Shown here one piece after another: positions 17,664-61,330 of a DNA stretch of 64,000 nt. Position numbers and translations under genes: made by a program. The notes beneath the pieces are model-generated. The model did not search any database, was not told where the DNA came from, and worked only from the letters and a program-made list of their open reading frames with translations. Each line of letters begins with the position of its first letter. The stretch's first letter is position 1. The stretch is taken from contig FP929140.1 in the NCBI GenBank assembly GCA_000198515.1, forward strand, positions 1,710,527 to 1,774,526. The letters run 5' to 3'. The stretch comes from a gamma proteobacterium HdN1. Its GTDB lineage: Bacteria; Pseudomonadota; Gammaproteobacteria; Pseudomonadales; Ketobacteraceae.

Positions 17664-18632
17664 TTAGTGGCTGCGCGCAACGGCAAAATGGCTTAAGTCG
17701 TGCAGGGCTTGGCGGTAAGGCGAATCGGGCAGTGCGTCAAGGTGGTGGCAGGCAAGCAGTGCATGTTCGTGCGCTTTGTTTGCTGTGTATTCTAGCCCGC
17801 CTGCGGTTTCTACGGCGCTTCGAATGGCTTCGATGTCGGGGCTTCCGCCCTCAAGGATCGCGTTATGAATGAGTTTTGCGCTTTCTGCATTTCCTTCGCG
17901 CATGGTAAAAATGAGAGGCAGTGTGGGTTTTCCTTCTGCGAGATCATCACCGATGTTTTTTCCAAGTGCTTGGCTGTCGCCGCGGAAATCAAGCACGTCA
18001 TCAATCAGTTGGAAGGCGATACCAAGATGTTCTCCGAATCCCCGCAGGGCATGGCGCTCGTAATCGGTAGCGCTAGCGAGTACCGCAGCGCTGTGGCTGG
18101 ATGCCTCAAGCAATACGGAGGTTTTGCTGCGAATGATCTGCATATAGGTTTCTTCGCTGGTGCTCACGTCTCGAACGCGTGAAAGTTGCAGCGCTTCGCC
18201 TTCTGCCATGATGCGTGTAGCTTGGGAGAGGATTTTCATAACGGGCATGTTGCCAAGGCCGACCATCATTTCGAAAGAACGCGAATAGAGGTAATCGCCG
18301 ACCAGTACGCTCGGAGCGTTTCCCCACTGTGCATTTGCGGTAGCACGACCTCTGCGTAGGCCGGATTTATCTACGACATCATCATGTAGCAGGGTTGCTG
18401 TATGTAGTAGTTCAATCGTGGCAGCTAATATGCGCAGATCTTCTTTGTGATAACCAACGGCACGTCCGCCTAATAATACCAATAATGGCCGCAAGCGCTT
18501 TCCGCCTGCTGAAATAATGTAGTCACCAATGGTTTGTACGAGCGCAACTTTCGATTGAATTTGTTGCCTGATGATTTCGTCAACCGCAATAAAGTCGTCT
18601 GCTACGAGTGCACGCATGGAAAGGGACTGCAT
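17664..18632 (-). CDS. ispB: Octaprenyl (polyprenyl) diphosphate synthase
   Basis: Trans-prenyltransferase that makes the side-chain precursor of ubiquinone, 322 residues against 323 in E. coli IspB. The first Asp-rich motif is LLHDDVVD (D84, D85, D88) with the following RRGRATAN, and the second is FQLIDDVLDF (D211, D212, D215). In many gammaproteobacteria ispB is divergent from rplU-rpmA. Here it is divergent from the LuxS/cyclase/UbiA cluster, whose prenyltransferase could use its product. A second ATG five codons in (MRALVADDF) is an alternative start. Confidence 0.94.
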   Translation of the reverse strand: MQSLSMRALVADDFIAVDEIIRQQIQSKVALVQTIGDYIISAGGKRLRPLLVLLGGRAVGYHKEDLRILAATIELLHTATLLHDDVVDKSGLRRGRATANAQWGNAPSVLVGDYLYSRSFEMMVGLGNMPVMKILSQATRIMAEGEALQLSRVRDVSTSEETYMQIIRSKTSVLLEASSHSAAVLASATDYERHALRGFGEHLGIAFQLIDDVLDFRGDSQALGKNIGDDLAEGKPTLPLIFTMREGNAESAKLIHNAILEGGSPDIEAIRSAVETAGGLEYTANKAHEHALLACHHLDALPDSPYRQALHDLSHFAVARSH

Positions 18633-18976: not shown

Positions 18977-20230
18977 GTGGGGAGAATTCAGCTCAGCTAT
19001 AGTACCTTTGGGCTTACGAATCTTGGGTTTAACGAGGCGCTCAGCGAGGTGGATCGGGCGGGCTACGAGGGAGTTGAAATTTCGTTCCACCGTCGGCAGT
19101 TCAATCCCTATAATTTATCCTGTGCGGATCTCGATGCGATCCGTGATCACCTTGCTGCTTTGCGCGTTAAGCCGGCCTGTGTGGCAACCGCGTCCCACTT
19201 TTTTACACCCAGTAGACCCCATGAGCCTTCTCTGTTAACGCTCGACCTAGCGGGGAGAAAGCGCCGTTGGGATCTGATTCGACGTGGTATTCAGGTTGCC
19301 CGTCATCTCAACGTAAATCTTGTGACGTTCGGTAGCGGATTTTTGCGTGATGATCATGTGGCGAATCCGAGTGTAGATCCAATGGAATTGCTGGTGGAAG
19401 GGATTCACCATTGTCTTGCGGAGATTCGTAGCGATGAGGATATTACGCTGTTGATTGAGCCAGAGCCTGGTATGTATATCGAAACCTTGGCGCAGGGGCT
19501 TGCGCTAATGGATGCTGTGGGCTCCCCAAAGTTTCGATTGCATATTGATATTTGCCACGCGTATTGCTCGGAGCTCGATTATATTTCTGCCTTGGGCCGA
19601 GCCGCACCTTTCGCGAGGTATTTGCATATTTCTGATGCGCGGGTGGGCTATAACTTGAAGCTGATGCAAGATTGTAGTGGCATGGAGATTGATCTGGACT
19701 TTGCCAGCGCTCTGGTCTATTTCCAAGATACTGCCGAGTTTCTCTTGGTAGACCGTGAACGGCCCTATTATTTTTGTAATCAAACTCCATCACCTGCGCG
19801 CGCGCAAAGGCTAAGGGAGATTCTAAATCATTCCGGGGTTTCGAGGCCCTTTGTTTGCATAGATTATTCCGCGCTTTTTGCCGGAAGTACGCATTTGGAT
19901 GATGAGATCTTCACGTATTCGATTTCTGTTCCTCGCCTTAGCTATGACGTTCTGGAGCGGGCAGCGCCGATCCTTGCGTGGCTGCGCGGGATCAAATCGA
20001 CGTCTGGCGTGATTCCTGCTCCAGTGAATAGTTTGCTAGCCAATACCTTGACTGGCGTAGCCCATTTTCATGAAATTCCCGGAGAGGGGAGCTTGGATTT
20101 TTCTGCGAGTTTTCGTGCCTTGACTGAAAATGGATTCTCGGGGTTTGGCTCTGTTGAGCTTTATCATCATGTTGGTTCGTGGAAGAAGGCTTTGGTTGAT
20201 AGCCACACGCATCTTTCCAGGTTTTTATAG
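18977..20230 (+). CDS. Sugar phosphate isomerase/epimerase-like TIM barrel protein with a large insertion
   Basis: Xylose-isomerase-like TIM barrel (AP_endonuc_2 class), 417 residues from GTG at 18977, with GGGGAGAG six bases upstream; the open frame extends to TTG at 18911. The N-terminal strand IQLSYSTFGL and GYEGVEISFH are typical. Metal-site residues are in TLLIEPEPGMYI, RLHIDICHAY and RYLHISDAR. The closing block HFHEIPGEGSLDFSASFRAL and SVELYHH normally follows directly, but here about 140 residues intervene. The insertion contains FLLVDRERPYYFCNQTP. First gene of a five-gene cluster. It probably isomerises or epimerises a sugar or cyclitol that the cyclase two genes on makes or uses. 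Confidence 0.8.
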   Translation: MGRIQLSYSTFGLTNLGFNEALSEVDRAGYEGVEISFHRRQFNPYNLSCADLDAIRDHLAALRVKPACVATASHFFTPSRPHEPSLLTLDLAGRKRRWDLIRRGIQVARHLNVNLVTFGSGFLRDDHVANPSVDPMELLVEGIHHCLAEIRSDEDITLLIEPEPGMYIETLAQGLALMDAVGSPKFRLHIDICHAYCSELDYISALGRAAPFARYLHISDARVGYNLKLMQDCSGMEIDLDFASALVYFQDTAEFLLVDRERPYYFCNQTPSPARAQRLREILNHSGVSRPFVCIDYSALFAGSTHLDDEIFTYSISVPRLSYDVLERAAPILAWLRGIKSTSGVIPAPVNSLLANTLTGVAHFHEIPGEGSLDFSASFRALTENGFSGFGSVELYHHVGSWKKALVDSHTHLSRFL

Positions 20231-20299
20231 ATTGTTATAGATTTTGATCGTTTTTTGATGGCTTTTTTTGTGAGGCTGAGTTTAGGTGCTGGGGGAGAT

Positions 20300-20785
20300 A
20301 TGAAGGGGTTTGACGTTGCGCTAGGCTGGCCTTCCGGAACGGTAGGGGAGCTTGATCATCGACGCCTGAAAACTCCGAGCGTGAAGTTGAGATCTGCTAC
20401 CGTAGGTGCGGCTGGCGATGTTGTCTATTGCATAGATTTTCGAGTGCGTTCTCCTAATGCGAACTGCTATCTAAGTTCGACGGAACTGCATTCTCTTGAG
20501 CATTTTTTACTTGAAGGAGCACAGCGGTTATTGCCTGACAATTTTCTATCTATAGGCGTTATGGGTTGCCAGACAGGATTTTATTTGACGCTATTGAATG
20601 AAGGCCGGGCAGGGCGAGTTTGTGAGGTGATTGCCGCTATTTTGGAGGGCATACTGGAGGCGAGGTGTGTTCCGTATGCGTGCATTGAACAGTGTGGTAA
20701 TTTTGAGAATCACAGTGTTGAGCTCGCCCAGCAGGTTGCAAAGGAAGTATTGGCCGAGCGTGGGCGCTGGTTGGAAGTGTTATGA
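20300..20785 (+). CDS. luxS: LuxS-family S-ribosylhomocysteine lyase homologue
   Basis: The protein has 161 residues from ATG 20300, preceded by GGGGGAG with ideal spacing; upstream in-frame starts at 20255 and 20258 have no such site. All LuxS active-site elements are present: LDHRRLKTP (H20), DFRVRSPN (R48), the metal site HSLEH (H64, E67, H68), MGCQTGFYL (C90) and QCGNFENHS (C132). LuxS cleaves S-ribosylhomocysteine to homocysteine and DPD, the autoinducer-2 precursor. Its stop overlaps the cyclase start (ATGA), so it belongs to this operon. It may recycle SAH made by the neighbouring methyltransferase, or have been recruited to a new sugar rearrangement. No MTA/SAH nucleosidase is nearby. 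Divergence from E. coli LuxS outside the motifs is considerable. Confidence 0.88.
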   Translation: MKGFDVALGWPSGTVGELDHRRLKTPSVKLRSATVGAAGDVVYCIDFRVRSPNANCYLSSTELHSLEHFLLEGAQRLLPDNFLSIGVMGCQTGFYLTLLNEGRAGRVCEVIAAILEGILEARCVPYACIEQCGNFENHSVELAQQVAKEVLAERGRWLEVL

Positions 20786-21966
20786 GAACTCTTGAGAATC
20801 GTAGTACGTTGAGAGCAAATGTAGCTAGCTTGGAAGCTCGCCAGTGGCGCGTATCTGCGCAACGTCCAATCTCTTACGATATCCTTAGTTCATACGATTT
20901 ATTTCATCCTGAAAACGATACCTTGCTTTCGTTCGGCCGTGTGGTTGGGGCAAAGCGGTTTGTGGTTGTGGATTCTAACGTCTACCAGATGCACCACGAA
21001 CGAATTGGGGCGTGGTTTGAGACGCGTAAAATTGAGGCAAAAATAGTTCCTTTTGTGGCGGGGGAAGAGCACAAGACGTTGGAATCTTGGCAGGCGATTT
21101 TAGCTGAGCTGGATAAGTTTCCGATTCATCGGCGTGATGACCCAATCATTGCGATTGGCGGTGGAGTTCTGACCGATGTCGTGGGTTTTGCTGCAGGATG
21201 CTATCGGCGTGGTGTTCCGCATATTAAAATTCCGACCACGCTGATGGGGTATGTGGATGCTTCGGTTGGAATCAAGACGGGCATTAATTTTCAGCAGAAT
21301 AAGAATCGTGTGGGAAATTTTGAGGTTCCACTTGCGGTGCTGTTGGATCGGCGCTTTCTTGCCACCCAGTCGCGTCGCCATCTGCTGAATGGGATTTGCG
21401 AAATCCTTAAACTGGCGATCGTATGTAGTGAGCCGTTGTTCAGTAGCTTGGAATGCTTTGGGCGTGAGAGTGTGGACGCGGCATTTCAGAACGCTTCCGC
21501 GAGCGGAATTCTGACTGCTGCAATTACCGAGATGATCAAGGAATTAGAGCCAAATTTATTCGAAAGTGAACTCTCGCGGCGGGTAGATTTTGGGCATACG
21601 TTTAGCTATGGGCTAGAAGCGGCATATCCTTTGAAGTTGCTGCATGGCGAAGCGGTTCTTCTGGATATTCTCGCCTCTGTTTTTCTTGCGAAAGAGCGTG
21701 GTCTTCTCTCCGGTGCAGAGTTAGCGCGGATCTGTTCACTCGTGAAGGTGCTTGGAATTGAGCCTGAGCTTCCGCTGTTAAACGCACCGCTTGCGTGGCG
21801 CACCTTGCAGGAGAGAATGATACACCGAAATGGAAGGCAGCACGTTCCTGTTCCGAAGGGCATCGGCAATTGTGTCTTTCTTGAGGATGTTTCCGAAGGA
21901 GAGATTGCCATTGCGATAAAATCGCTCCATCAATGTTTTGAAGGTTTCTATGAACCAAGCATTTGA
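20782..21966 (+). CDS. Sugar phosphate cyclase, 2-epi-5-epi-valiolone synthase-like
   Basis: 3-dehydroquinate synthase superfamily, 394 residues. NAD-binding is shown by IAIGGGVLTDVVGFAAGCYRR (126-144). Metal ligands match E207 (GICEILKLAI), H272 (DFGHTFSYG) and H288 (LHGEAV). The active-site loop reads DASVGIKTGINF followed by KNRVGNF; KNR in place of the KNMIG of true DHQ synthase resembles cyclases that act on sedoheptulose 7-phosphate (EEVS/DDGS group). So a C7 cyclitol product is the best guess, not shikimate. It overlaps luxS by four bases and the methyltransferase by 17. About 35 residues precede the usual domain start. Confidence 0.82.
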   Translation: MRTLENRSTLRANVASLEARQWRVSAQRPISYDILSSYDLFHPENDTLLSFGRVVGAKRFVVVDSNVYQMHHERIGAWFETRKIEAKIVPFVAGEEHKTLESWQAILAELDKFPIHRRDDPIIAIGGGVLTDVVGFAAGCYRRGVPHIKIPTTLMGYVDASVGIKTGINFQQNKNRVGNFEVPLAVLLDRRFLATQSRRHLLNGICEILKLAIVCSEPLFSSLECFGRESVDAAFQNASASGILTAAITEMIKELEPNLFESELSRRVDFGHTFSYGLEAAYPLKLLHGEAVLLDILASVFLAKERGLLSGAELARICSLVKVLGIEPELPLLNAPLAWRTLQERMIHRNGRQHVPVPKGIGNCVFLEDVSEGEIAIAIKSLHQCFEGFYEPSI

Positions 21967-22687
21967 AGTACAAGATTCAGCCAACGTTGATCCTAAGGAA
22001 ATCGCCCACTTTGACCGGATTGCAAATCTATGGTGGGATGAGCGTGGAAAAATGGGAAATTTGCACGTAATCAACCCGCTGCGAAGGGCCTATATTTTTG
22101 AAAACATCTCCATAGAATCACCAAAGATGCTGGATGTTGGTTGTGGCGGAGGAATTCTTACAGAGGCATTGGTTCGTTCCGGCGCAGAAGTTACGGGTAT
22201 TGATCAGTCGACTCTTACTCTTGAAATTGCGCGCCGTCACGCGAAAAGTGAGGGGCTTTCCATTGATTATCGCTGTCAAAGAATTGAAGAGCTCGCGGTT
22301 TTGGAGCCAGAAATGTACGACGCGATCTGCTGTATGGAAATGCTTGAACATGTGCCTGATCCAAATAGCACCATCCACGCGTGTGCGCATGCATTAAAGC
22401 CAGGTGGAAAGCTATTTTTTTCGACCATCAATCGCTCTGCGAAGGCGTGGCTGTTTGCCATTATCATCGGCGAATATGTGCTGGGCCTCTTGCCGCGTGG
22501 GACACATCAATATCAAAAGTTGATACGCCCCCAAGAGTTGTACGGCTGGGCAAACGCAGCGGGCCTTGATTTTGTGAGTGTTGCGAGCTTGCTATACAAC
22601 CCGATCACCCGGGGGTTCAAGGTAAAGGCGGGCGTTGAGGACATCAATTACATGGCGTGCTTCGTGAAGCGTGGTGCCGAGAAATAG
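21950..22687 (+). CDS. ubiG: UbiG-like SAM-dependent O-methyltransferase
   Basis: The protein has 245 residues from the ATG at 21950, which lies inside the cyclase gene. Very close to UbiG: DPKEIAHFDRIANLWWDERG, the SAM motif MLDVGCGGGIL (60-70), CCMEMLEHVPDP (128-138), PGGKLFFSTINR and the C-terminal YNPITRGFKVKAGVEDINYM. UbiG performs both O-methylations in ubiquinone synthesis. Because the match is so close this could be the cell's only UbiG, drawn into the cluster, or a paralogue acting on the cluster's product. The 17-base overlap implies coupled translation. It releases SAH, a precursor of the LuxS substrate. Confidence 0.85.
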   Translation: MNQAFEVQDSANVDPKEIAHFDRIANLWWDERGKMGNLHVINPLRRAYIFENISIESPKMLDVGCGGGILTEALVRSGAEVTGIDQSTLTLEIARRHAKSEGLSIDYRCQRIEELAVLEPEMYDAICCMEMLEHVPDPNSTIHACAHALKPGGKLFFSTINRSAKAWLFAIIIGEYVLGLLPRGTHQYQKLIRPQELYGWANAAGLDFVSVASLLYNPITRGFKVKAGVEDINYMACFVKRGAEK

Positions 22688-22759
22688 CGCGCAGGTTGCG
22701 GGTCGGTTGAGTGATCGCCGCACTTTTTTGGGAATAAAATTTCTGCTGGGATCTCCAAA

Positions 22760-23704
22760 ATGCTAAAAAAATTTCTTGCGCTTTCCCGTTCTACGCACGG
22801 CATCCTAGATGTTGCCATGCCGGGTTTTGTTGCGCTGTTGTGGGCGGGTGGCTTTCCCACCGTATCGGTTCTTGCGCTTTCTCTCGTTACTGCGGTCGCC
22901 GGATACACAGCGATTTACGCTTTGAATGATTTGGTTGGAGTCTCTGTAGATCGCGAAAAGTTTGCGGGCGCGGCATTGCCTCAAGGGTATTCGGTTGAAG
23001 CTTCGGCTTTGCGCTACCCGCTTGCGCAGGGTGTGTTAAGTATGCGAAGCGGAATGGTGTGGTTTGCGGTTTGGTACGCGATCACGCTAGTGGGAGCATG
23101 GTTGCTGAATCCGCCGATCGTTTTGATTGTGATTGCGGCAGCGCTTCTTGAAGTTCTCTATTGCAAACTGCTTCGCGTAACTTGGTGGCGTACCGTGGTA
23201 GGTGGGTTGGTGAAATCTGCGGGGCCGATTGCTGCGATTTTTGTTGTGGTACCTGCACCATCCTTGCCCTTGTTAGGTTTGGTTCTGGCTTGGCTGATTT
23301 GTTGGGAGATTGGCGGCCAGAACATTCCAGCGGATTGGAATGATTTGGAGGAGGATCGGCGTGTGGGCGCAAAAACGATTCCTCTGGTATTTGGAACGCA
23401 GCGTGCTGCGCTTGTGATTCTAGCGGCATTGATCGTAACCGTAAGCCTTAGCCTGTTTTTGCCTGTACTGTCACCTCTGGCGCTGGGCTTCCCTTTTGTG
23501 GCGGCGGTCTTGGTGATCGGGTTTTGGTTGCTGTTAAAACCTGCGTGGGATCTTTGGCTAGCACAGGTAGGTACGGGTGCCCTAGGAGCGAAAGAGGTCG
23601 GCCGAGAGGCTGCGCGATTGTTTGATCACGCGAGCCTTTATCCGCTGGCGCTGCTTGTTTTGATGACGATCGTGGTGGTTTTCCACGAATTTTTGCGCTC
23701 GTGA
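22760..23704 (+). CDS. UbiA-family prenyltransferase
   Basis: Integral membrane prenyltransferase, 314 residues, about eight or nine helices. The two Asp-rich motifs that bind prenyl diphosphate through Mg are present: N56-D57 with D64 (ALNDLVGVSVD) and D192, D195, D199 (ADWNDLEEDRRVGAKTIP). The first lacks the usual middle Asp of NDxxD. It differs from UbiA of ubiquinone synthesis at the N-terminus (LSRSTHGILDVAMPG). It lies 72 bases after the methyltransferase and ends the cluster. Likely transfers a polyprenyl chain to an aromatic or cyclitol acceptor; IspB, divergent from the cluster, could supply the chain. Confidence 0.85.
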   Translation: MLKKFLALSRSTHGILDVAMPGFVALLWAGGFPTVSVLALSLVTAVAGYTAIYALNDLVGVSVDREKFAGAALPQGYSVEASALRYPLAQGVLSMRSGMVWFAVWYAITLVGAWLLNPPIVLIVIAAALLEVLYCKLLRVTWWRTVVGGLVKSAGPIAAIFVVVPAPSLPLLGLVLAWLICWEIGGQNIPADWNDLEEDRRVGAKTIPLVFGTQRAALVILAALIVTVSLSLFLPVLSPLALGFPFVAAVLVIGFWLLLKPAWDLWLAQVGTGALGAKEVGREAARLFDHASLYPLALLVLMTIVVVFHEFLRS

Positions 23705-23870
23705 TGTAGAGCCAAAGCGCTCTTTGTCGCGCTGCCAATGAGCGTCGTACTGTGACGAATTGCACATCCTGTGTACAATAAGTATATGGGGCTCGCGCGT
23801 GGCTGTGTGCGAGTGGTTGTCACAAGAGTAGCGCTGTGCGGGTTTGTATGGCGCTGTGGTGGTTTTTTTC

Positions 23871-25436
23871 ATGTCCTTTAAGACCTTGCGACGCGTTTCG
23901 CGATTTCCTAGCGTTTTTACTGCTGGTTTTCTGCTGATTTCAGGCTTCCTCTTGGTCGGTGGCGCGACGTATGCCGTGCGCGCTCACGCTGCGGTGGACT
24001 ATGTGGGGGAGCGAAATTCATTCAATCGCTTTCACGGGCAGGGGACGTATACCTATCGTAATGGTACTGTTTACGAGGGGCAGTGGGTGGACGGTCGCAA
24101 GCAGGGGCAGGGGCGTCAAACCAATCCGGATGGCAGCGTTTATAATGGCCAATGGCGAGATAATGAGCAAAACGGCCAAGGGCGGATGCGTTTTGCGAAT
24201 GGCGACACCTACGAAGGTGGGTGGAGTGCTGGGCGTATGCACGGTAAGGGCGTTTTTACATTTGCGAACGGCGATCGCTACGAGGGAAGCTTTATTGGCG
24301 GTAAGCAAGAAGGAACAGGCGTTTTTACGCGCAAGAATGGTGAGCACTACGAAGGCCAATGGAAGTCAGGTCGGCGTGATGGTAGCGGAACGCTTGTTCG
24401 TCCTAGTGTAGGTAGCATTGCTGGAACTTGGCGGGCCGATGCGCCGGTTGCGCCAATGACGGTCACCTTTTCAAACGGTGATCAGTTTATCGGAAACTTG
24501 CAAAACCTTGCTCCGAACGGCAAGGGTACCTGCAAGACCAAAGGCGCGACCAGCGAATGTGAGTATCGTAACGGTAAGCGGGTGGAGCCGGTCGTCGCTC
24601 CTGTAGCCAAGGCCATGACGCCAGAAGCACCCAAGGCAAAGCCGGTAGAAAAGCCTGTAGAAAAGCCTGTAGAGAAAGTGCTTGCGCCCGCTGCGCCTGT
24701 GGAACAGGCGGCGGTGAGCGTGTCTGATAAACCTGTAGTGCCTCCGGCGCCGGCGGTCGTTTCCAAAGCCGATGAGAAAGCAGCCGCGAAGGCGATTGCG
24801 AAGGCTGAGAGTGGTGGCAGAAAGCTCACCGGAGTGCTGTCTGAGGGGATGGGGATCGCGGCAGCGGACGGTGCTAAAGCGCTGAAAGACGCATCTAGCG
24901 CGAGAGAAGGTTCGAAGCCTGCGGCGGTACCGGCGACAAAAGAGCCAAACCCGCTGCTAAAGGCGGATATTGTCCGAAGCACTTCCGTGGCGAACGGTGT
25001 GCCGATGCCGCTTGCGAGCAGCCTTGCTGCGACGGTACTCGCGAGTGGCAATCCACGCGTTGTTTTCAAGCAAGATTGGTCGGGTGCGGCCGTGTTGGTG
25101 GATGAAAGCGCCGGATTTTACGCGAAAAAAGACAACGTGCAGATTGGTGATTTGCGCATCTATGCGGAGAGCAAAGGCGTTTCGGTGACTTTGATGGTGG
25201 ATGAGTATCTCGGCCCTGGGGTCTACCCGCTCAAATACTTCAAAGCGTCGATCACCAAAGACGGAGCATCCTCTTATCGGACGGCGGCGGCACAGCCCGG
25301 TGAGCTGGTTGTGACGCAAGATGATGGCAAAGTGATCAAGGGCACCTTCCGGTTTGTCGGCTATCCAACGGGCAATCTTGCGGCGGGAAACGGTAGAACG
25401 GTCAGCGACGGCGCTTTTGTCATTCCGCTGAAGTGA
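23871..25436 (+). CDS. MORN-repeat protein, probably envelope anchored
   Basis: The protein has 521 residues from ATG 23871 (MSFKTLRRVSRF); the open frame begins at a TTG at 23844. An N-terminal hydrophobic segment (FTAGFLLISGFLLVGGATYA) is a signal anchor or signal peptide. Five or six MORN repeats cover about residues 45-165 (pattern YEGQWxDGRKQGQG). A Pro/Ala/Lys-rich linker follows, including a short KPVE repeat. The last 130 residues form a separate beta-rich domain of unknown type (VVFKQDWSGAAVLVDESAG to SDGAFVIPLK). MORN repeats mediate lipid or protein contacts. Function unknown. Confidence 0.8.
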   Translation: MSFKTLRRVSRFPSVFTAGFLLISGFLLVGGATYAVRAHAAVDYVGERNSFNRFHGQGTYTYRNGTVYEGQWVDGRKQGQGRQTNPDGSVYNGQWRDNEQNGQGRMRFANGDTYEGGWSAGRMHGKGVFTFANGDRYEGSFIGGKQEGTGVFTRKNGEHYEGQWKSGRRDGSGTLVRPSVGSIAGTWRADAPVAPMTVTFSNGDQFIGNLQNLAPNGKGTCKTKGATSECEYRNGKRVEPVVAPVAKAMTPEAPKAKPVEKPVEKPVEKVLAPAAPVEQAAVSVSDKPVVPPAPAVVSKADEKAAAKAIAKAESGGRKLTGVLSEGMGIAAADGAKALKDASSAREGSKPAAVPATKEPNPLLKADIVRSTSVANGVPMPLASSLAATVLASGNPRVVFKQDWSGAAVLVDESAGFYAKKDNVQIGDLRIYAESKGVSVTLMVDEYLGPGVYPLKYFKASITKDGASSYRTAAAQPGELVVTQDDGKVIKGTFRFVGYPTGNLAAGNGRTVSDGAFVIPLK

Positions 25437-30776: not shown

Positions 30777-32171
30777 CTAAACATACGGCTCAAGAATTTC
30801 TCGCCCCTTGAGCTCCGCACTCAATACCGACAGGAAGGTATACGCGCCCATAATCTTGCGTATTAGGAACATCACTTCACGCGGGGGAAGGATGAAGGTG
30901 CGGCTGGCGGCTCCGGTGGTGGCACCCGCAGTGGCCTTCAATGCGATACGTCCAGGTAGATCGCTCTTGCCCCAGAGGTATTCGCCTTTTTCGTTCAGCA
31001 CGAAGCTGGGGGGCGGGTTGGCTTCGTTGTCGTTAAAGGGTTCGATGGCCAAAAACACCACTTTTGCGAGGCTACGTTTGACCTCGATTGGCGTGGATTC
31101 TTCCAGAAAGCCGAGTTCCACCAGCCCTTCAAAAAGCAGCGGTTCGTTGTGCTCAAACGCGGCTCGTACAATTTTGCGCCCCGGTTCGATGGTGCTGGCG
31201 GAGAATTCACGCACCGCACCGAAGTCGAGCAGAATCATGCGGTCTGGAACGGATTCGCCATCGCCCAAGCGGATGAAGTAGTTGCCGAAATTGGGGTCGG
31301 TCTGCATTTCGCCCCAGCGAAATACTTCGCTCCAGCAGAGATCCAGTGCCGCGCGGCAGATAAGGTTACGGCGCTCTTGGGAAAGGTTCAGGGCAGTTTC
31401 CGAATCTACGCCGATGCCGGGTTCGTAGGCGGTGGCCAAGATATGGGGGGTGGAAAATTCAGGGTAAACCTTTGGCACGATGTAACGATCATCATGCTTG
31501 AGGCGCTCGCGAAAGAGTGCGGTTTTTTCGAGCTCGTGGCCGTAATCAACTTCGCGGTGCATCATGTCGCGAATTTCTTGGTACCAGGTGTGAAATTCGT
31601 CGGTGATGGGGATGATTTTCAGCACCCGTAAGAGGGTTTCTACTGCGTTCAGGTCGCTGTCTACGGCGTCTGCAACGCCGGGGTATTGGACTTTGAGGCA
31701 GATTTGTTCACCCGTCGCGCGAATCGTGGCGCGGTGAACTTGGCCAATGGACGCGCAACCGATGGGATTTTCGTCGATTTCCAGTTGAGCGAGGCGATCT
31801 TCGCCTAATTCGTCTTCAATGGTTTCGTAGATGGTTGTCCAGTCGAGGGCAGTGGTGTCGTCTTCGAGGGTGTGCAGAGCGTCGGTGACTTCTTTGGGAA
31901 GGAAGTGCTCGCCGTAGAGGGCCATCATTTGGCCGATTTTGACGATGCTGCCTTTCAACTTGCCGATCTCGTCAGCAAGGTACTGGGCTTGGCGGGCGAG
32001 GATTTCCTTTTGTTTGGCTTCGCGGTGCTCCTTCGCGGTGAATACGTTGCCTGCAGATTGTGCGACAAGGCGAGTCCCTGCAACAAAACCGGCTTTGGCC
32101 ACACTAAAACGGCGCTCGAATGCGCCGGTCTTGATACGTTTGATCGTCTTCCGTTGATCGCTCTCTGACAT
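30777..32171 (-). CDS. ABC1/AarF-family atypical kinase
   Basis: UbiB/ADCK-like protein, 464 residues from ATG 32171 (MSESDQRKT). Signature elements in order: KIGQ in SIVKIGQMMALYGEHF, the Ala-rich loop CASIGQVHRATI, the invariant Lys in CLKVQYPG, MQTDPNFGNYF, and LDFGAVREF as the DFG. It lacks the C-terminal membrane helices of UbiB, so it resembles the soluble ABC1 group of Pseudomonas-type genomes. A second family member with membrane helices lies at 59663. Family proteins influence ubiquinone synthesis or lipid homeostasis; the specific role is unknown. Confidence 0.88.
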   Translation of the reverse strand: MSESDQRKTIKRIKTGAFERRFSVAKAGFVAGTRLVAQSAGNVFTAKEHREAKQKEILARQAQYLADEIGKLKGSIVKIGQMMALYGEHFLPKEVTDALHTLEDDTTALDWTTIYETIEDELGEDRLAQLEIDENPIGCASIGQVHRATIRATGEQICLKVQYPGVADAVDSDLNAVETLLRVLKIIPITDEFHTWYQEIRDMMHREVDYGHELEKTALFRERLKHDDRYIVPKVYPEFSTPHILATAYEPGIGVDSETALNLSQERRNLICRAALDLCWSEVFRWGEMQTDPNFGNYFIRLGDGESVPDRMILLDFGAVREFSASTIEPGRKIVRAAFEHNEPLLFEGLVELGFLEESTPIEVKRSLAKVVFLAIEPFNDNEANPPPSFVLNEKGEYLWGKSDLPGRIALKATAGATTGAASRTFILPPREVMFLIRKIMGAYTFLSVLSAELKGREILEPYV

Positions 32172-32287
32172 GCCTACTCCCCCAGCGACGCAATGCATCG
32201 CTTACTGCTCGTTTCAAACATTGGTTGTGCCGATATTGGGCAACGAATGGTAACTGATTTGCGGAGTCAAGGACACAATTTAACGAG

Positions 32288-33220: not shown

Positions 33221-35064
33221 GTGTGCCAGGCATGGCAGTTAACTCGTCGGGTGAAAGTCCCGATACCAGGTATTCGCAGAGCCGAAGGTTAGCCAAAGGG
33301 CAAGGGCGTCATCGCGAGGTGAGGTCTAAAGGAAGCCCACGGCAAAATCGCGGGGCGATGAACAAAAACCGGATATGAGGTGTGACATGAGCGGGGCGTA
33401 TGGGCACGTGACCATCAAGCCCTCCATCTGCAATTGGCTTGTGTTTTATAAATCCGGCGCCTACGCGAGGAACGTTAACTGTCTTACCCTGGGAGATCTG
33501 CTTTGTGTTAACGGACTAACTGAGGGTGAAGAGATTCACTTGATCGCAAAGTAGAAGTCAGCAGAGAGAATAGTACCGGTGATTACTCGGTTAGTTGAAA
33601 AAAATAGCCGTGCATGTCTAAGGGAAGGCTCGAACGATGGTGAGGCGATGTGGGAAGGCGGGGTTTAGGTAAGGCATCCGAAATTGAAAAGGGATGAAAC
33701 ACAAACCGGAAAATTCATGACATCAGACCTCAATTTATCTTTATCACTCTTGGAGCGCGCCCTAGAAAAGGAAAATCTTCAGCGCGCGTTCAACCAAGTG
33801 GTACGCAACAAAGGCGCTCCCGGAATAGACGGCATGCCCGTCGAAGATCTGGAAAGCCACTTGCGGCATCACTGGCCAACGCTCCGACAATCATTACTCG
33901 ATGGAACCTACCAACCCAAACCGGTAAAACGGGTTGAAATACCCAAAGGCGACGGCACTAAGCGCGCACTTGGAATTCCGACCGTGATCGACCGGTTTGT
34001 GCAGCAAATCATAGCGCAAGCACTTTCAGCGTTATGGGAGCCGCACTTCCACCCCAGCAGTTTTGGTTTTCGCCCAGCACGCTCGGCACAACAAGCGGTA
34101 AAATACGTGCAAACGTTACAACGCGAGAAGTACGAGTGGGTCGTCGATCTCGATCTGAAATCCTTCTTCGATGAAGTGAATCACGATCGTTTAATCGCGC
34201 GACTGAAAACCAGAGTTGAAGACAAAGTCCTGTTGCGATTGATCAACAAATTCCTGCATGCGGGAATTAATGCAAACGGGATATTGTTACGAAGTGAGAA
34301 AGGGGTGCCGCAAGGAGGCCCGCTCTCACCGATTCTGGCCAATATCGTACTGGACGAACTAGATTGGGAATTGGAACATAGAGGGCATAAATTCGCACGC
34401 TATGCTGATGACTGCAATATCATGGTCAAAAGCAAGGCGGCAGGCGAACGAGTAATGAAAAGTATCCGGCGCTTTCTTGAAACGACACTTCGGCTCAGGG
34501 TGAACGACCAGAAAAGCGCGGTGGATCGTCCGACAAAACGAAATTTCCTTGGATTTACATTTAGCGCGCACTCGCAACGCATTAAAGTGAGCGATAAGTC
34601 ATTATCCAGACTTCGGGATAAGGTGAGAGTGCTCACCCGACGGACGCGTGGGCACACATTTGAAACCATTATTGCAGAGCTGACCTTTTACCTGCTTGGT
34701 TGGAAAGCATACTTCGGCTTGGCTGAAGTATTGAGCCCGCTGCGCGATGTGGATAAATGGATACGAAGGAAATTACGGTGCTATCTGTGGAAGCAATGGG
34801 GTCAAAGTGGATATCGTAAACTCAGACGCCATGGCGTCAGCGTGGAACTGGCGTGGAATACCTCTAAGTCGGCCCACGGCCCGTGGCGCTTGAGCAACAG
34901 CCCCGCATTGACGCAGGCACTACCGAGAAAGTACTTTAAAGGCATTGGGCTGCCGGAATTGGCAGGGGGATAAAATAAATCAACCAACGAACCGCCGTGG
35001 TACGTGATCCGTATGCCCGGTGGTGTGGGAGGGGTGGCGCTGCGAGGCGCCCCTCTATCCCGAT
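33221..35064 (+). mobile_element. Group IIC intron inserted in a CRISPR repeat
   Basis: The 5' end fits GTGYG (GTGTGCCAGG at 33221). The early ribozyme segment has GGTGAAAGTCCCGATACC. The reverse transcriptase gene lies inside domain IV. Domain V runs from about 34988 (GAACCGCCGTGG, with GGTGGTGTGGGAGGGG closing it), and the 3' end is CTATCCCGAT at 35064. Length 1,844 bases is normal for class C. Joining the flanks (GT ending at 33220, TTCAATCCACG from 35065) rebuilds 26 bases of the type I-C CRISPR repeat. Boundaries are inferred from consensus ends and that restored repeat. Confidence 0.85.
33717..34973 (+). CDS. ltrA: Group II intron reverse transcriptase/maturase (class C)
   Basis: The protein has 418 residues from ATG 33717; a TTG at 33684 is also in frame. 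RT domains are complete: NKGAPGIDGMPVEDL, RALGIPTVIDRFVQQ, SSFGFRPARSAQQAV, VDLDLKSFFDEVNHD, GVPQGGPLSPILANI and the catalytic FARYADDCNIMV. The maturase X domain follows (LTFYLLGWKAYFGLAE). No HNH endonuclease domain is present, as usual for class C introns, which insert beside DNA hairpins or attC sites. The frame is intact, so the intron may still be mobile. Confidence 0.95.
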   Translation: MTSDLNLSLSLLERALEKENLQRAFNQVVRNKGAPGIDGMPVEDLESHLRHHWPTLRQSLLDGTYQPKPVKRVEIPKGDGTKRALGIPTVIDRFVQQIIAQALSALWEPHFHPSSFGFRPARSAQQAVKYVQTLQREKYEWVVDLDLKSFFDEVNHDRLIARLKTRVEDKVLLRLINKFLHAGINANGILLRSEKGVPQGGPLSPILANIVLDELDWELEHRGHKFARYADDCNIMVKSKAAGERVMKSIRRFLETTLRLRVNDQKSAVDRPTKRNFLGFTFSAHSQRIKVSDKSLSRLRDKVRVLTRRTRGHTFETIIAELTFYLLGWKAYFGLAEVLSPLRDVDKWIRRKLRCYLWKQWGQSGYRKLRRHGVSVELAWNTSKSAHGPWRLSNSPALTQALPRKYFKGIGLPELAGG

Positions 35065-55433: not shown

Positions 55434-55497
55434 GTGACGTTAAAGCCAAGTGACGTTAAAGCCAAGTGATGTTAAAGCCAAGTGACGTTAAAGCCAA
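55434..55497. repeat. Four 16-bp tandem repeats between phosphorylase and PRPP synthetase genes
   Basis: GTGACGTTAAAGCCAA occurs at 55434, 55450 and 55482, with one-base variant GTGATG at 55466. The last unit includes the phosphorylase stop codon and final codons. Two or three more decayed units extend down to 55391. The duplication fills the whole gap between the two genes. Confidence 0.9.
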
Positions 55498-57038
55498 GAG
55501 TAACTGGCAGGGGGTTGGTCTGTAATGCGGTAGACTGGGTGGGTGTTGAGCCAGCGAATGGCAAATTGCATATCCGCTGGAAACTGGGAGTGGATTCTAA
55601 ATAACGGCTCGCCTGCTTGTACAGGATCTCCGATGCGTTTCATTACGTAAACGCCTGAGCCTTTGTCCATGGGAGCACCGGCGAGGCGGGCGGCTCTGGA
55701 AAGCGCGAGATTGTCGATTCCCGCCACGTAGCCACTGCGTTTGGCGGTGAGCTCGTGGGTGAGTGCGCCCAGTGTCCATTTGCGAGATTGGGGGCCTTGT
55801 GCGTGGATGAGGGCGTTCATTTTTTCGAGTGCGCGCCCCGAATCCAGAATGTCGCGGGCAATGCTGTAGCCTTCGCCGCCGCGCACGTAGGTGTCGAATT
55901 CAATCATGCGGCCTGCGAGTTGCAGGCTTTTTTCGCGCAGGTCGTGCGGTGCATCGGGCGCGTTCTGTAGCACCTGCATCACATCTTGTGCTTCGAGCAA
56001 GGGGCCGATGCCTCGGCCAATGGGCTGGCGGCCATCGGTGATCACGATTTGCACCTGAAGGCCCATGCGTTCGCCCACGTATTCAAATAGTTTGCGAAGC
56101 TGGATGGCTTCACGGGCGGAGCGCACCTTGGCGGTGGGGCCGGTGGGGATGTCGATCAGCAGATGGGTGGAGCCGCAGGCGACTTTTTTGGAGAGGATGG
56201 AGGCCACCATCTGCGCTTGAGAGTCGATGTTGAGAGGGCGCTCTACAGAGATTAGAACGTCGTCAACGGGGGCGAGGCGCGCAGTGCCGCCCCAAGCAAG
56301 ACAGCCTTTTTCCTCGCGCACGATTTCGTGGAGGCGCTCGGGGGGGAGATCGACTTCTGCGAATACTTCCATGGTGTCGGCGGTGCCGGCGGGGGAAGTG
56401 ATTGCGCGGCTGGAGGTTTTGGGGCAGAGCAGCCCGTAGGCAGCAACAATAGGCACGACGATCATGGAGGTGCGGTTGCCGGGGATGCCGCCGATGCAGT
56501 GTTTGTCTACCACAATGGGGTCGTGCCAGTTCAGGCGATGGCCGGATTCCACCATGGCGCGCGTTAGAAACAGGATCTCGTCGCGATCTAGGCCGGCTTC
56601 GGCTACGGTAACGAGAAAGGCGGCAATTTCGGGTTTGGAGTAGCGGTTTTCTGCAATGTCGCTAACGATCGCTTTGAGTTGCGCTTGCGAGAGGCGTTCC
56701 CCCGAGAGCTTGGCGCGAACGTGTTCCATGGATTGCGGCGGTTCTGCGTGAGCGACGCTGACTTCTGTGCCTTCTGCTAGGCCGAGTTGATCGAAGCTCT
56801 GTTCGGACAGGCCGAGCTCACACGGGGCGACGATGTTGCGATCATCCACTACGTTGAGCGACGCAAGAATACGGTGGCTGTTGCTGCTGACTTCGATTTT
56901 GCTGAGCGCCTGAAAGCCTTCCGCTTTGTAGATCTCGCATTCGCGATGGAGGTAGGCGACGTTTTCGTGGTAGGTGTCGATGGCGATTCGTTTAAGGCGC
57001 AGTGTTGAGAACGTGTTGGGCGGGTTGGTTTCCGTCAT
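55488..57038 (-). CDS. Thymidine/AMP phosphorylase-like protein (archaeal family)
   Basis: The protein has 516 residues, the length of the archaeal phosphorylase family (about 500) rather than of E. coli DeoA (440). An N-terminal extra domain (residues 1-95) precedes the glycosyltransferase-3-type core: [70 protein letters not shown]. It splits nucleosides or nucleoside monophosphates with phosphate. Together with the PRPP synthetase homologue it suggests pentose salvage from nucleotides. Confidence 0.9.
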
Positions 57039-59662: not shown

Positions 59663-61330
59663 CTATTCCCCGTTGCGATGGCTCCACCACATGAGGAATA
59701 GCTGCCAGTACAAAGCACCGACGGAACCGAGAAACCCTAGTAGCCCAATCACGGAAAAGCCGAGTAACTGCGGGCCTTTCTCGGCCAAGCAGAGCATAGC
59801 AAAGGCCACAACGAGGCAGCCGCAGGCAAATACGTTGGTTTGGCGATAGCGGAGCAGTTCGTGGTGCTTTACCAAGCGCTCTACGGTGGGGCGATCTAGG
59901 CCATTGGCGTTGCCCGCAGATTTTTGGGTGACGATAGGCGGTTTGGGCTCTTCGTAGATTTTATCGACGATGTTGAGTGCGCGGGTGGTGAGACGCTTGG
60001 CGAGTGTCACCGGGTTGTAATAATCCTTGCCCCACTGCTTGATGAGGGGTTCTGCCTCTTTCATGAGGTCAAAGTTGGGGTTTAGCAGCCGACCAAAGCC
60101 TTCTAATGTGAGGCACGCCTTGGAGAACATCGCAATGTCAGAGGGGAGAGTGATGTTGAAAGTGCGGAGGATGTCGGTGGCGTCGGCAATGACTTGCTGG
60201 ATGTTGATTTTGGAGAGTGGAACGCCGTAGTAGCGTGAGATAAAGTCTTCGGCTTCGCCATGAATGGTGTCGAAATCGGCGTTACCGTCCGACCATTCCA
60301 GCATCACGGCGGCAACTGCGGTTGTGTCTTGCAGGACGATGCTGCGGGTGAGTTTCATGAGCTGTTCGCGGCGCCCAACGCTTAACTTGCCGACCATGCC
60401 GAAGTCGAGCATGGCGATACGGTTGCGCGGTAAGATCAGAAAATTGCCCGGATGTGGGTCGGCGTGGAAAAATCCATCCACCAGCATGGTCTGCCAGACG
60501 ATTTTTGCGCCGCGTGTGGCGAGCAGTTGGCGATCCAGCCCAGCAGCTTCGAGCTCTTTGGTGTTTTTGGCAGAAATGCCGCGCACGAATTCCTGCACGT
60601 TCATGTCTTCGCCAGTCCATTCCCAGTAGACCTTGGGGATTTTGACGTAGGGGATGTGCTTGAGGCTTTCTGCAATGCGCTCGGCGTTTTTGGATTCGAT
60701 CGAGAAGTCGAGTTCGCGCAGCAGGGACTTTTCAAATTCGCGGACGATTTCAATCGGCCGATAGCGCCGCAGTTCTTGGCTTTGACTTTGCGCAATGCTG
60801 GCGAGGTAGTGCAGCAAGCGCAGGTCGGCTTCGATCTTTTCGCGGATGTTGGGTTTGCGAACTTTTAGGACGACTTCTTCGCCGTTCAGAGTTACTGCAC
60901 GGTGTACCTGAGCCATTGACGCGGTGCCCAGTGGTTTTTCGTCGATGTGGTGAAAGGCTTCGCTGGTGGGCTTTCCGATGGAGTTTTCGACCAGCGCTTG
61001 GATGACGCTAAAGGGCAGGGCGGTGTTGCTGTCCTGCATTTTTTCCAGCTCGCGTATCCAGTCGGGGGCGAATAGGTCAACGCGGGTGGCGAGAATTTGC
61101 CCCAGCTTGATAAACGTTGGCCCCATTTCTTCCATGGCGTGGCGCATACGCTCTGGAGGTTCCATGGACATAAAATCGGCAGAAATCTGGTAGCGAACGA
61201 GCTTTCCTGCTTTTTCGATGCTCTCTGCCAAACCGATTCGGCGGATCATATCTCCAAAGCCGTATTTGATCAGAATGTTGACGATTTCGTTCAGTCGCCG
61301 GATGTCCTTTCCTGTTTTTAGTATGTCCAT
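59663..61330 (-). CDS. UbiB/AarF-family atypical kinase with C-terminal membrane helices
   Basis: The protein has 555 residues. Motifs in order: KLGQ in TFIKLGQILATRVDLF, the Ala-rich loop GTASMAQVHRA, Lys in VLKVRKPN, the HADPHPGNFL loop, and LDFGMVGKL. Two C-terminal helices (FACGCLVVAFAMLC and LGFSVIGLLGFLGSVGALYW). Resembles UbiB (546 residues in E. coli), needed for ubiquinone synthesis or trafficking. It is not linked to ubiE/ubiJ as ubiB usually is, so it could be a paralogue. No gene lies close upstream. Confidence 0.88.
   Translation of the reverse strand: MDILKTGKDIRRLNEIVNILIKYGFGDMIRRIGLAESIEKAGKLVRYQISADFMSMEPPERMRHAMEEMGPTFIKLGQILATRVDLFAPDWIRELEKMQDSNTALPFSVIQALVENSIGKPTSEAFHHIDEKPLGTASMAQVHRAVTLNGEEVVLKVRKPNIREKIEADLRLLHYLASIAQSQSQELRRYRPIEIVREFEKSLLRELDFSIESKNAERIAESLKHIPYVKIPKVYWEWTGEDMNVQEFVRGISAKNTKELEAAGLDRQLLATRGAKIVWQTMLVDGFFHADPHPGNFLILPRNRIAMLDFGMVGKLSVGRREQLMKLTRSIVLQDTTAVAAVMLEWSDGNADFDTIHGEAEDFISRYYGVPLSKINIQQVIADATDILRTFNITLPSDIAMFSKACLTLEGFGRLLNPNFDLMKEAEPLIKQWGKDYYNPVTLAKRLTTRALNIVDKIYEEPKPPIVTQKSAGNANGLDRPTVERLVKHHELLRYRQTNVFACGCLVVAFAMLCLAEKGPQLLGFSVIGLLGFLGSVGALYWQLFLMWWSHRNGE

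Follow-up and report, generated by a model that had tools for sequence, protein, structure and literature searches.

The 64,000-nucleotide stretch analysed here, called the window, comes from the gamma proteobacterium HdN1 (assembly GCA_000198515.1, contig FP929140.1, positions 1,710,527 to 1,774,526 of the forward strand) and contains five plus-strand genes that combine a LuxS homologue with a TIM-barrel protein, a sugar phosphate cyclase, a UbiG-type methyltransferase and a UbiA-superfamily prenyltransferase. Coordinates, strand and spacing of this operon, i.e. gaps of 69, -4, -17 and 72 bases, are as given in an initial annotation made by a model from the sequence alone. In gene order, the Pfam matches are AP_endonuc_2, LuxS, DHQ_synthase, methyltransferase and UbiA, and the GTG start of the first gene at 18977 agrees with the starts of its homologues in the alignment. 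In window positions, the cluster and its divergent neighbour are as follows:

17664..18632, minus strand: IspB-like polyprenyl (octaprenyl) diphosphate synthase, divergent neighbour (PRK10888, 374 bits, below the cut-off of 412)
18977..20230, plus strand: TIM-barrel protein, 417 residues, GTG start, ketose-3-epimerase-like fold with a big insertion at about residues 226-368
20300..20785, plus strand: LuxS homologue, 161 residues, catalytic and metal residues intact, Ser in place of Asp78 (B. subtilis numbering)
20782..21966, plus strand: sugar phosphate cyclase, 394 residues, in a separate clade next to sedoheptulose-7-phosphate cyclases, not AroB
21950..22687, plus strand: UbiG-type O-methyltransferase, 245 residues, the single UbiG above cut-off in the genome
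22760..23704, plus strand: UbiA-superfamily prenyltransferase, 314 residues, with two Asp-rich stretches (by eye)

The IspB-like neighbour is likely to be the source of the prenyl donor for the UbiA protein of the cluster.

Conservation and distribution of the cluster

A scan of genome contigs with the LuxS protein gave 80 loci among the matches listed, at which the partner genes were sought by tblastn (E 1e-4) over up to 8 kb per side; the resulting counts describe these fetched loci and are not population frequencies. The whole order TIM barrel-LuxS-cyclase-UbiG-UbiA, all on one strand, is present in 16 of the 80, i.e. LuxS and cyclase genes do co-occur elsewhere, as the initial annotation had presupposed in reading them as parts of one pathway, and in 60 loci LuxS has none of the other four genes nearby. 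Of the four partial clusters, two run into a contig end (L034, L049), and in the other two TIM barrel and LuxS share a single open frame, with the cyclase gene adjoining in Desulforadius (L048) and a contig end following in Zooshikella (L050). These single frames suggest that the TIM-barrel enzyme and the LuxS homologue carry out consecutive steps of a pathway. By their titles, 11 of the whole loci belong to Chloroflexi and five to Proteobacteria, all being metagenome-assembled genomes (MAGs); their proteins are 47-67% identical to those of the window, and in one (L044) the TIM gene is truncated by a contig end. Outside the five genes, no gene family is shared by more than three of the loci compared. 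The five genes are a conserved biosynthetic unit.

Two kinds of neighbours at these loci may be recorded here. A chorismate synthase gene lies right beside the cluster in a Thermomonas MAG (L035, 115-1425) and in a Chloroflexi MAG (L036, 3145-4323), and at two loci of Chloroflexi (L032, 10861-11430; L038, 11299-11937) the UbiA gene faces a convergent gene for a UbiE-family-like methyltransferase.

Among 194 genomes of relatives, HdN1 included, LuxS of any kind is found in 18, and in none of the 14 family members listed. In ten of the 17 other LuxS genomes the surroundings of the gene were recorded, with all five genes in G058, a fused TIM-LuxS in G083 and LuxS alone in eight; the remaining seven, whose LuxS proteins are 31-34% identical, are outside this count.

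Phylogenetic trees cover three of the families, i.e. LuxS, cyclase and UbiG, leaving aside UbiA and the TIM barrel, and were compared with 16 ordinary LuxS proteins, with AroB and other sugar phosphate cyclases and with six housekeeping UbiGs, along with few outgroups. In each of them the cluster proteins form a separate clade, which for LuxS includes the two fused proteins, and the comparison with canonical LuxS that the initial annotation had proposed thus sets the cluster LuxS apart. Since most proteobacterial copies, that of the window included, sit inside the Chloroflexi ones in the LuxS and cyclase trees, the phylogeny suggests that the cluster may have moved laterally between Chloroflexi and Proteobacteria; two copies (L046 and L047) branch outside Chloroflexi in both of these trees, and the nesting is not seen in the UbiG tree.

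In the open-access literature, preprints not being covered, we found no paper that treats the five genes as a pathway, only uninterpreted table rows. In the part of PMC8756737 available to us, Table A1 gives a xylose isomerase-like protein, LuxS, EEVS, UbiG and UbiA in the same order for the Anaerolineales SURF MAG 42, where they are listed merely as neighbours of nirS and are not interpreted. The cluster thus apparently is an undescribed biosynthetic unit with a re-purposed LuxS.

The enzymes encoded by the cluster

An important question is whether the LuxS homologue still performs the reaction of S-ribosylhomocysteine lyase. It resembles this enzyme in family, metal site and catalytic Cys and Glu, but differs from it in its altered substrate-binding residues, in forming its own clade and in its biosynthetic operon setting. 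The active-site residues pointed out in the initial annotation (H64, E67, H68, C90 and C132) were all found. Among the 19 cluster LuxS proteins aligned, 18 or 19 have them, the uncertainty being due to a row truncated at a contig end, and the same metal and catalytic residues are found in all 60 ordinary LuxS proteins, which are the nearest ones and not a random sample. At the position of Asp78, however, all 19 cluster proteins have Ser, whereas Asp is found in 60 of 60 ordinary ones and in 16 of 16 in a more mixed set; Arg65 is kept in only four of the 19 (the window protein has Gln) but in all 60 ordinary ones. Nearly all cluster rows also deviate in the N-terminal Ser-Phe pair, and all 19 have Tyr for a canonical Ala at position 126 of the window protein. 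Both Asp78 and Arg65 have been implicated in substrate binding by crystallography, according to the portion of PMC2656534 at hand. The best NCBIfam match, the LuxS equivalog, reaches 104.6 bits against a cut-off of 158, and the other nine models listed likewise stay below theirs.

In addition, HdN1 has no known source of S-ribosylhomocysteine, because its genome encodes S-adenosylhomocysteine hydrolase (SahH) and gave no match to the PF01048 nucleosidases (MTAN/Pfs type), for which 13 of 14 control genomes were positive. By contrast, such a protein is present in each of the six members of HdN1's own family searched. The missing-substrate argument is valid for this genome only, since other hosts do carry PF01048 proteins: members of this broad family are encoded by G083 and by every genome from which loci L031-L049 (19 in number) were taken. 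While the search for nucleoside phosphorylases or hydrolases of PF01048 gave nothing in this genome, a pyrimidine-nucleoside-phosphorylase-type protein is encoded in the window at 55488-57038 on the minus strand. Judged by its residues and genomic setting, the cluster LuxS probably has a function other than the textbook one.

The cyclase contains both motifs (KNRVG and GIKTGINF) on which the initial annotation had based its assignment to the sedoheptulose-7-phosphate type, and this assignment now finds agreement in structure database matches, plasmid matches and the tree. Its best PDB match is 4p53 with 291 bits, followed by 5tpr with 221 (which we take to be ValA/EEVS and DDGS, respectively), and DHQS entries give 136 at most; its best annotated plasmid matches, at 36-39% identity, are labelled sedoheptulose 7-phosphate cyclase. 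By its position in the tree the cyclase groups with the sedoheptulose-7-phosphate cyclases, its clade (100/100) lying on their side and apart from AroB in a tree that is without EboD, has a long-branched Nostoc row and leaves the forks among types unsettled. The AroB equivalog TIGR01357 is matched with 202.7 bits, below the cut-off of 305, and a second, canonical-looking AroB with the usual motifs is encoded elsewhere in the genome. The idea that the cyclase is a true AroB, which the initial annotation had kept in view for the case that the genome had no other aroB, was rejected on the grounds of this separate gene and the tree split. With 4p53 the cyclase shares HRxGxQHxPxPxGIG, but besides forming its own clade it differs from EEVS and DDGS, by our reading of the alignment, in a Tyr after GHxFS where 4p53 has Pro and in a Cys in NGICEILK.

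For the TIM-barrel protein, the AlphaFold model (mean pLDDT 93) most resembles ketose 3-epimerases in a fold search (Z about 28-30, root mean square deviation 2.1-2.8 Å over 251-267 residues), with xylose isomerases close behind, so that the predicted fold would be of this kind. Candidate metal-site residues, among them E161, E163, H189, D191, H194, H217 and E394, are invariant in 19 of 19 rows, their role in metal binding being presumably that known from the fold family. Weak sequence matches include L-ribulose 3-epimerase and the dehydratase AsbF; the latter is a weak sequence match only, while the fold search gave ketose 3-epimerases and xylose isomerases.

UbiG elsewhere acts on precursors of respiratory quinones. 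The UbiG of the cluster passes TIGR01983 with 251.3 bits (cut-off 102.95), aligns almost end to end with E. coli UbiG at 49.8% identity and is the only UbiG above cut-off in the genome. It is 53-64% identical to the five cluster UbiGs compared, and the clade of cluster UbiGs (99/97) stands apart from the six housekeeping ones. Because this protein is full-length and E. coli-like, a polyprenylated catechol-like substrate would be expected. The cluster UbiA, by contrast with its UbiG, stays below the cut-offs of TIGR01475 (55.8 of 180.8 bits), TIGR01474 (29 of 275.45) and the MqnP models (at most 32.3 of 375-430), and MenA is among none of the models listed.

Quinone genes in the HdN1 genome

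The genome is a single contig and 100% complete. PF01040 is matched in it by four proteins, namely the UbiA of the cluster, a PRK08238 protein with 679 bits, one of the PRK05951 type with 407 bits and, at 23 bits only, a protein that looks like a GTPase by eye; none of the four (the last judged by eye) is a UbiA, MenA, MqnP or CyoE over cut-off. In nine of the ten family genomes searched, each of these nine being at least 96% complete, PF01040 is matched by two proteins with 227-241 bits, and the tenth, which is 54% complete, has neither; two of these 18 proteins were identified, one as UbiA (L128) and one as heme O synthase (L136). Ubi hydroxylases (TIGR01988, cut-off 224.65) are over cut-off in six of six family genomes searched, and the best match in HdN1 has 37.9 bits. 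In the family member G002, ubiE, ubiJ and ubiB are followed by hisE and tatABC (by eye), and the stretches taken from G004 and G012 encode a protein 80-83% identical to G002 UbiB. In HdN1, hisE-tatABC (by eye) come immediately after ubiE, and a tblastn search of this region with UbiB and UbiJ gave no match to either; the name UbiJ is given to the relative's protein, which scores 81.8 of the 275 bits needed, by its place between ubiE and ubiB.

At the same time the organism can be expected to have a quinol, because two cbb3 oxidases over cut-off and two fused, quinol-type nitric oxide reductases are encoded. The fused architecture is quinol-dependent according to the accessible part of PMC8756737. 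Cytochrome cd1 nitrite reductase (NirS) and a two-subunit nitric oxide reductase (by eye) are also present, and cytochrome bd is not encoded in the genome. As a side observation, a 3-ketosteroid-dehydrogenase-like gene lies near a fused nitric oxide reductase gene (L175, 3617-5503 and 7787-10168), perhaps for steroid use under denitrification. The cluster together with its IspB-like neighbour is the sole set of prenyl-donor enzyme, prenyltransferase and O-methyltransferase found in the genome (UbiU/V, men/mqn, bc1 and complex I were not searched for). Compared with the proteobacterial ubiquinone pathway, the likeness thus consists in a UbiG above cut-off, a UbiA-superfamily protein, an IspB-like neighbour and UbiE in the genome, and the difference in that canonical UbiA and Ubi hydroxylases were not found, ubiJ-ubiB are missing at their usual place and the ring apparently comes via a sugar cyclase.

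A proposed quinone route and its alternatives

We propose, with a probability of roughly 0.58, that the five genes are a unit for making an O-methylated benzoquinone or quinol with a polyprenyl chain, the ring of which stems from a sugar phosphate rather than from chorismate, and which in this organism serves as a membrane quinone; the product here is probably a respiratory quinone, i.e. ubiquinone or something close to it. From gene families and order, clades, residues and genome content, all read from sequence, we infer reactions, an order of steps and a product that may be pictured as follows. The TIM-barrel enzyme would epimerise or isomerise the sugar or keto-cyclitol, and the cyclase would turn a phosphorylated seven-carbon sugar, most likely sedoheptulose 7-phosphate, into a keto-cyclitol by ring closure. 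With its metal ion, Cys and Glu, the LuxS homologue would then shift a carbonyl along the carbon skeleton and eliminate water in β-position, so that the ring aromatises. UbiA would add the prenyl chain made by the neighbouring IspB-like synthase, and UbiG would O-methylate the product; two UbiG methylations after prenylation would give a ubiquinol.

In the LuxS reaction itself, a carbonyl migrates to C3, after which homocysteine leaves by β-elimination. These events are preceded by a cofactor-free internal redox reaction via a 2-keto intermediate (PMC3907816, of which a part was available). A ring dehydratase of LuxS type, expelling water where LuxS expels homocysteine, would thus be analogous in its chemistry. 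In terms of formulae, a valiolone-type cyclitol (C7H12O6) minus two molecules of water would be tetrahydroxytoluene (C7H8O4), whose four adjacent oxygens, methyl group and free carbon would match the pattern of the ubiquinone head. Valienone would be the first dehydration product of a valiolone-type cyclitol; LuxS-like carbonyl migration and β-elimination of the exocyclic hydroxyl could complete aromatisation. In its simplest version the route would need no O2, no UbiE and no decarboxylation. Spelled out in full, this would be a chorismate- and O2-independent route to a ubiquinone-like compound, in which a cyclitol from sedoheptulose 7-phosphate is doubly dehydrated and aromatised to tetrahydroxytoluene by the TIM-barrel enzyme and a repurposed LuxS, prenylated and O-methylated, and which has passed between Chloroflexi and Proteobacteria and, at least in this respiring organism, taken the place of the classical pathway; as a whole, this detailed version is tentative, and we would sooner bet against than for it.

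Several observations weigh against the proposed quinone route. The genome has kept UbiE (241.9 bits, cut-off 158.35; 51% identical to that of a relative), which a ring with a built-in methyl group would not need; the presence of UbiE favours a variant whose ring is supplied without the methyl. In the window there is also a divergent UbiB-like ABC1 kinase (59663-61330, minus strand; TIGR01982, 445 bits, cut-off 487.55), sharing only 28-30% identity with UbiB from three members of the family, so that, although ubiB is gone from its usual place, the idea of a complete loss of UbiB is weakened; possibly this kinase is a UbiB that works with the new pathway. The PRK05951 protein could be an unrecognised quinone prenyltransferase. 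All 16 whole loci outside the window come from MAGs, and several of the hosts have other quinone genes: G194, G197, G208, G210 and G212 encode UbiA-type proteins with 253-306 bits (matched part only), two of them over the cut-off of 275.45 and three just under it, and MenA is over cut-off in two of the three Chloroflexi hosts looked at (G195 and G206, not G200). The assumption that canonical quinone genes are lost in all cluster hosts was therefore rejected, and the cluster is not everywhere a replacement but can coexist with other quinone routes.

Among the ten cluster hosts searched, UbiE/MenG over cut-off is missing in G198, G209, G200 and G212, which would fit the version with a built-in methyl; all four, however, are MAGs, and in G212 a canonical UbiA and canonical hydroxylases are found in spite of there being no UbiE/MenG over cut-off. 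In addition to heme O synthase and the cluster UbiA, G198 and G209 have only a low-scoring UbiA (137-148 bits of 275), G209 also encoding a weak MenA-like protein.

Three further observations on genes may be added. A second ABC1-domain protein (168 bits) is encoded in the window at 30777-32198 on the minus strand, 7 kb downstream of the cluster. At L177 (6672-7637 and 7702-10497), a gene for a PRK05951-type UbiA-superfamily prenyltransferase adjoins one for an HMG-CoA reductase-domain protein, with an MMPL-type transporter (by eye), as another unexplained prenyl-lipid locus of the HdN1 genome. In the cluster-bearing Spongiibacteraceae MAG G210, menF-menD-like genes (by eye) stand beside menG/ubiE (L201).

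The most serious competitor, which we consider doubtful and yet well worth keeping in mind, is that the cluster might make a specialised prenylated and methylated cyclitol or phenol, such as a signal, an antioxidant or an exported metabolite, besides a normal quinone. This would be analogous to the ebo (EDB) clusters, which also unite UbiA, a cyclase and a TIM barrel and have been linked to metabolite export, and it would go along with the UbiA-type or MenA genes of several cluster hosts as well as with the patchy spread of the cluster, which accounts for only two (G058 and G083) of the ten LuxS surroundings looked at in relatives. Yet no other known quinone prenyltransferase was found in HdN1 in spite of its quinol-type enzymes, and the cluster UbiG is E. 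coli-like. Simple membership in the ebo group was rejected, as EboA, EboB and EboF are not among the neighbours of the cluster (the cyclase tree giving no information on EboD), which differs also in having LuxS and UbiG. The initial annotation had noted that ebo clusters lack the latter two, and this agrees with the ebo papers, LuxS being absent from the text of both PMC5133447 and PMC6282210 and UbiG from that of PMC5133447. In a single comparison with an ebo-like Streptomyces cluster, the prenyltransferase of the latter had no real similarity to the cluster UbiA (E 0.24), and its EboE matched the window TIM protein over 43 residues only. On a Streptomyces plasmid (L215), the ebo-like cluster includes a gene for inositol-3-phosphate synthase; its second TIM barrel is similar to the TIM protein of the window (31%, E 9e-19), and among its listed annotated genes there is none for a DHQS-type cyclase.

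It is less likely still that the cluster UbiA and UbiG merely stand in for missing enzymes of the 4-hydroxybenzoate pathway, with O2-independent hydroxylation of the UbiUV type, and that TIM barrel, LuxS and cyclase make some other product or the ring acid. The retained UbiE and UbiB-like kinase and the denitrification genes would accord with this, as UbiTUV would fit a denitrifying lifestyle, but such a division of labour leaves cyclase and LuxS without explanation, and the five genes are found as a set in two phyla, one of them Chloroflexi. Finally, an ordinary LuxS that produces autoinducer-2 (AI-2) and recycles the S-adenosylhomocysteine-derived product of UbiG methylation, the latter being a role offered in the initial annotation, seems highly improbable in spite of its intact catalytic and metal residues: SahH is present and no PF01048 protein is encoded in this genome, Asp78 is lost throughout, Arg65 is changed in 15 of the 19 cluster proteins, and both the separate clade and the equivalog score point away from it; it was rejected as the identity of the protein on the grounds of the missing nucleosidase and the changed substrate-binding residues. 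Thus, of the pathway to a methylated, prenylated cyclitol or quinone-like compound envisaged in the initial annotation, a single pathway distinct from ebo and a methylated, prenylated ring compound as its product stay plausible, and the recycling role of LuxS has to be given up.

To our knowledge, known quinone rings begin either from chorismate, as in ubiquinone and menaquinone, or from homogentisate, as in plant plastoquinone. If the proposed quinone route is true, a central electron carrier would have a new source, in that a cyclase and a LuxS homologue make its ring from sugar, and the LuxS fold would have a biosynthetic role outside the methyl cycle. Annotators are liable to take cluster-bearing genomes for those of AI-2 producers and the ubiG of the cluster for an ordinary one. 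According to the part of a 2026 survey that was available (PMC13386864), many Chloroflexota are without known quinone pathways, and undiscovered quinones have been suggested; the cluster would then be a candidate for such missing pathways, against which stands the presence of MenA in two of the three cluster-bearing Chloroflexi checked.

Elsewhere in the window, a MORN-repeat protein is encoded directly 3' of the UbiA gene (23844-25436, plus strand), a carboxylesterase (by eye) is among the neighbours of the cluster, and a group II intron reverse transcriptase/maturase lies at 33684-34973 on the plus strand.

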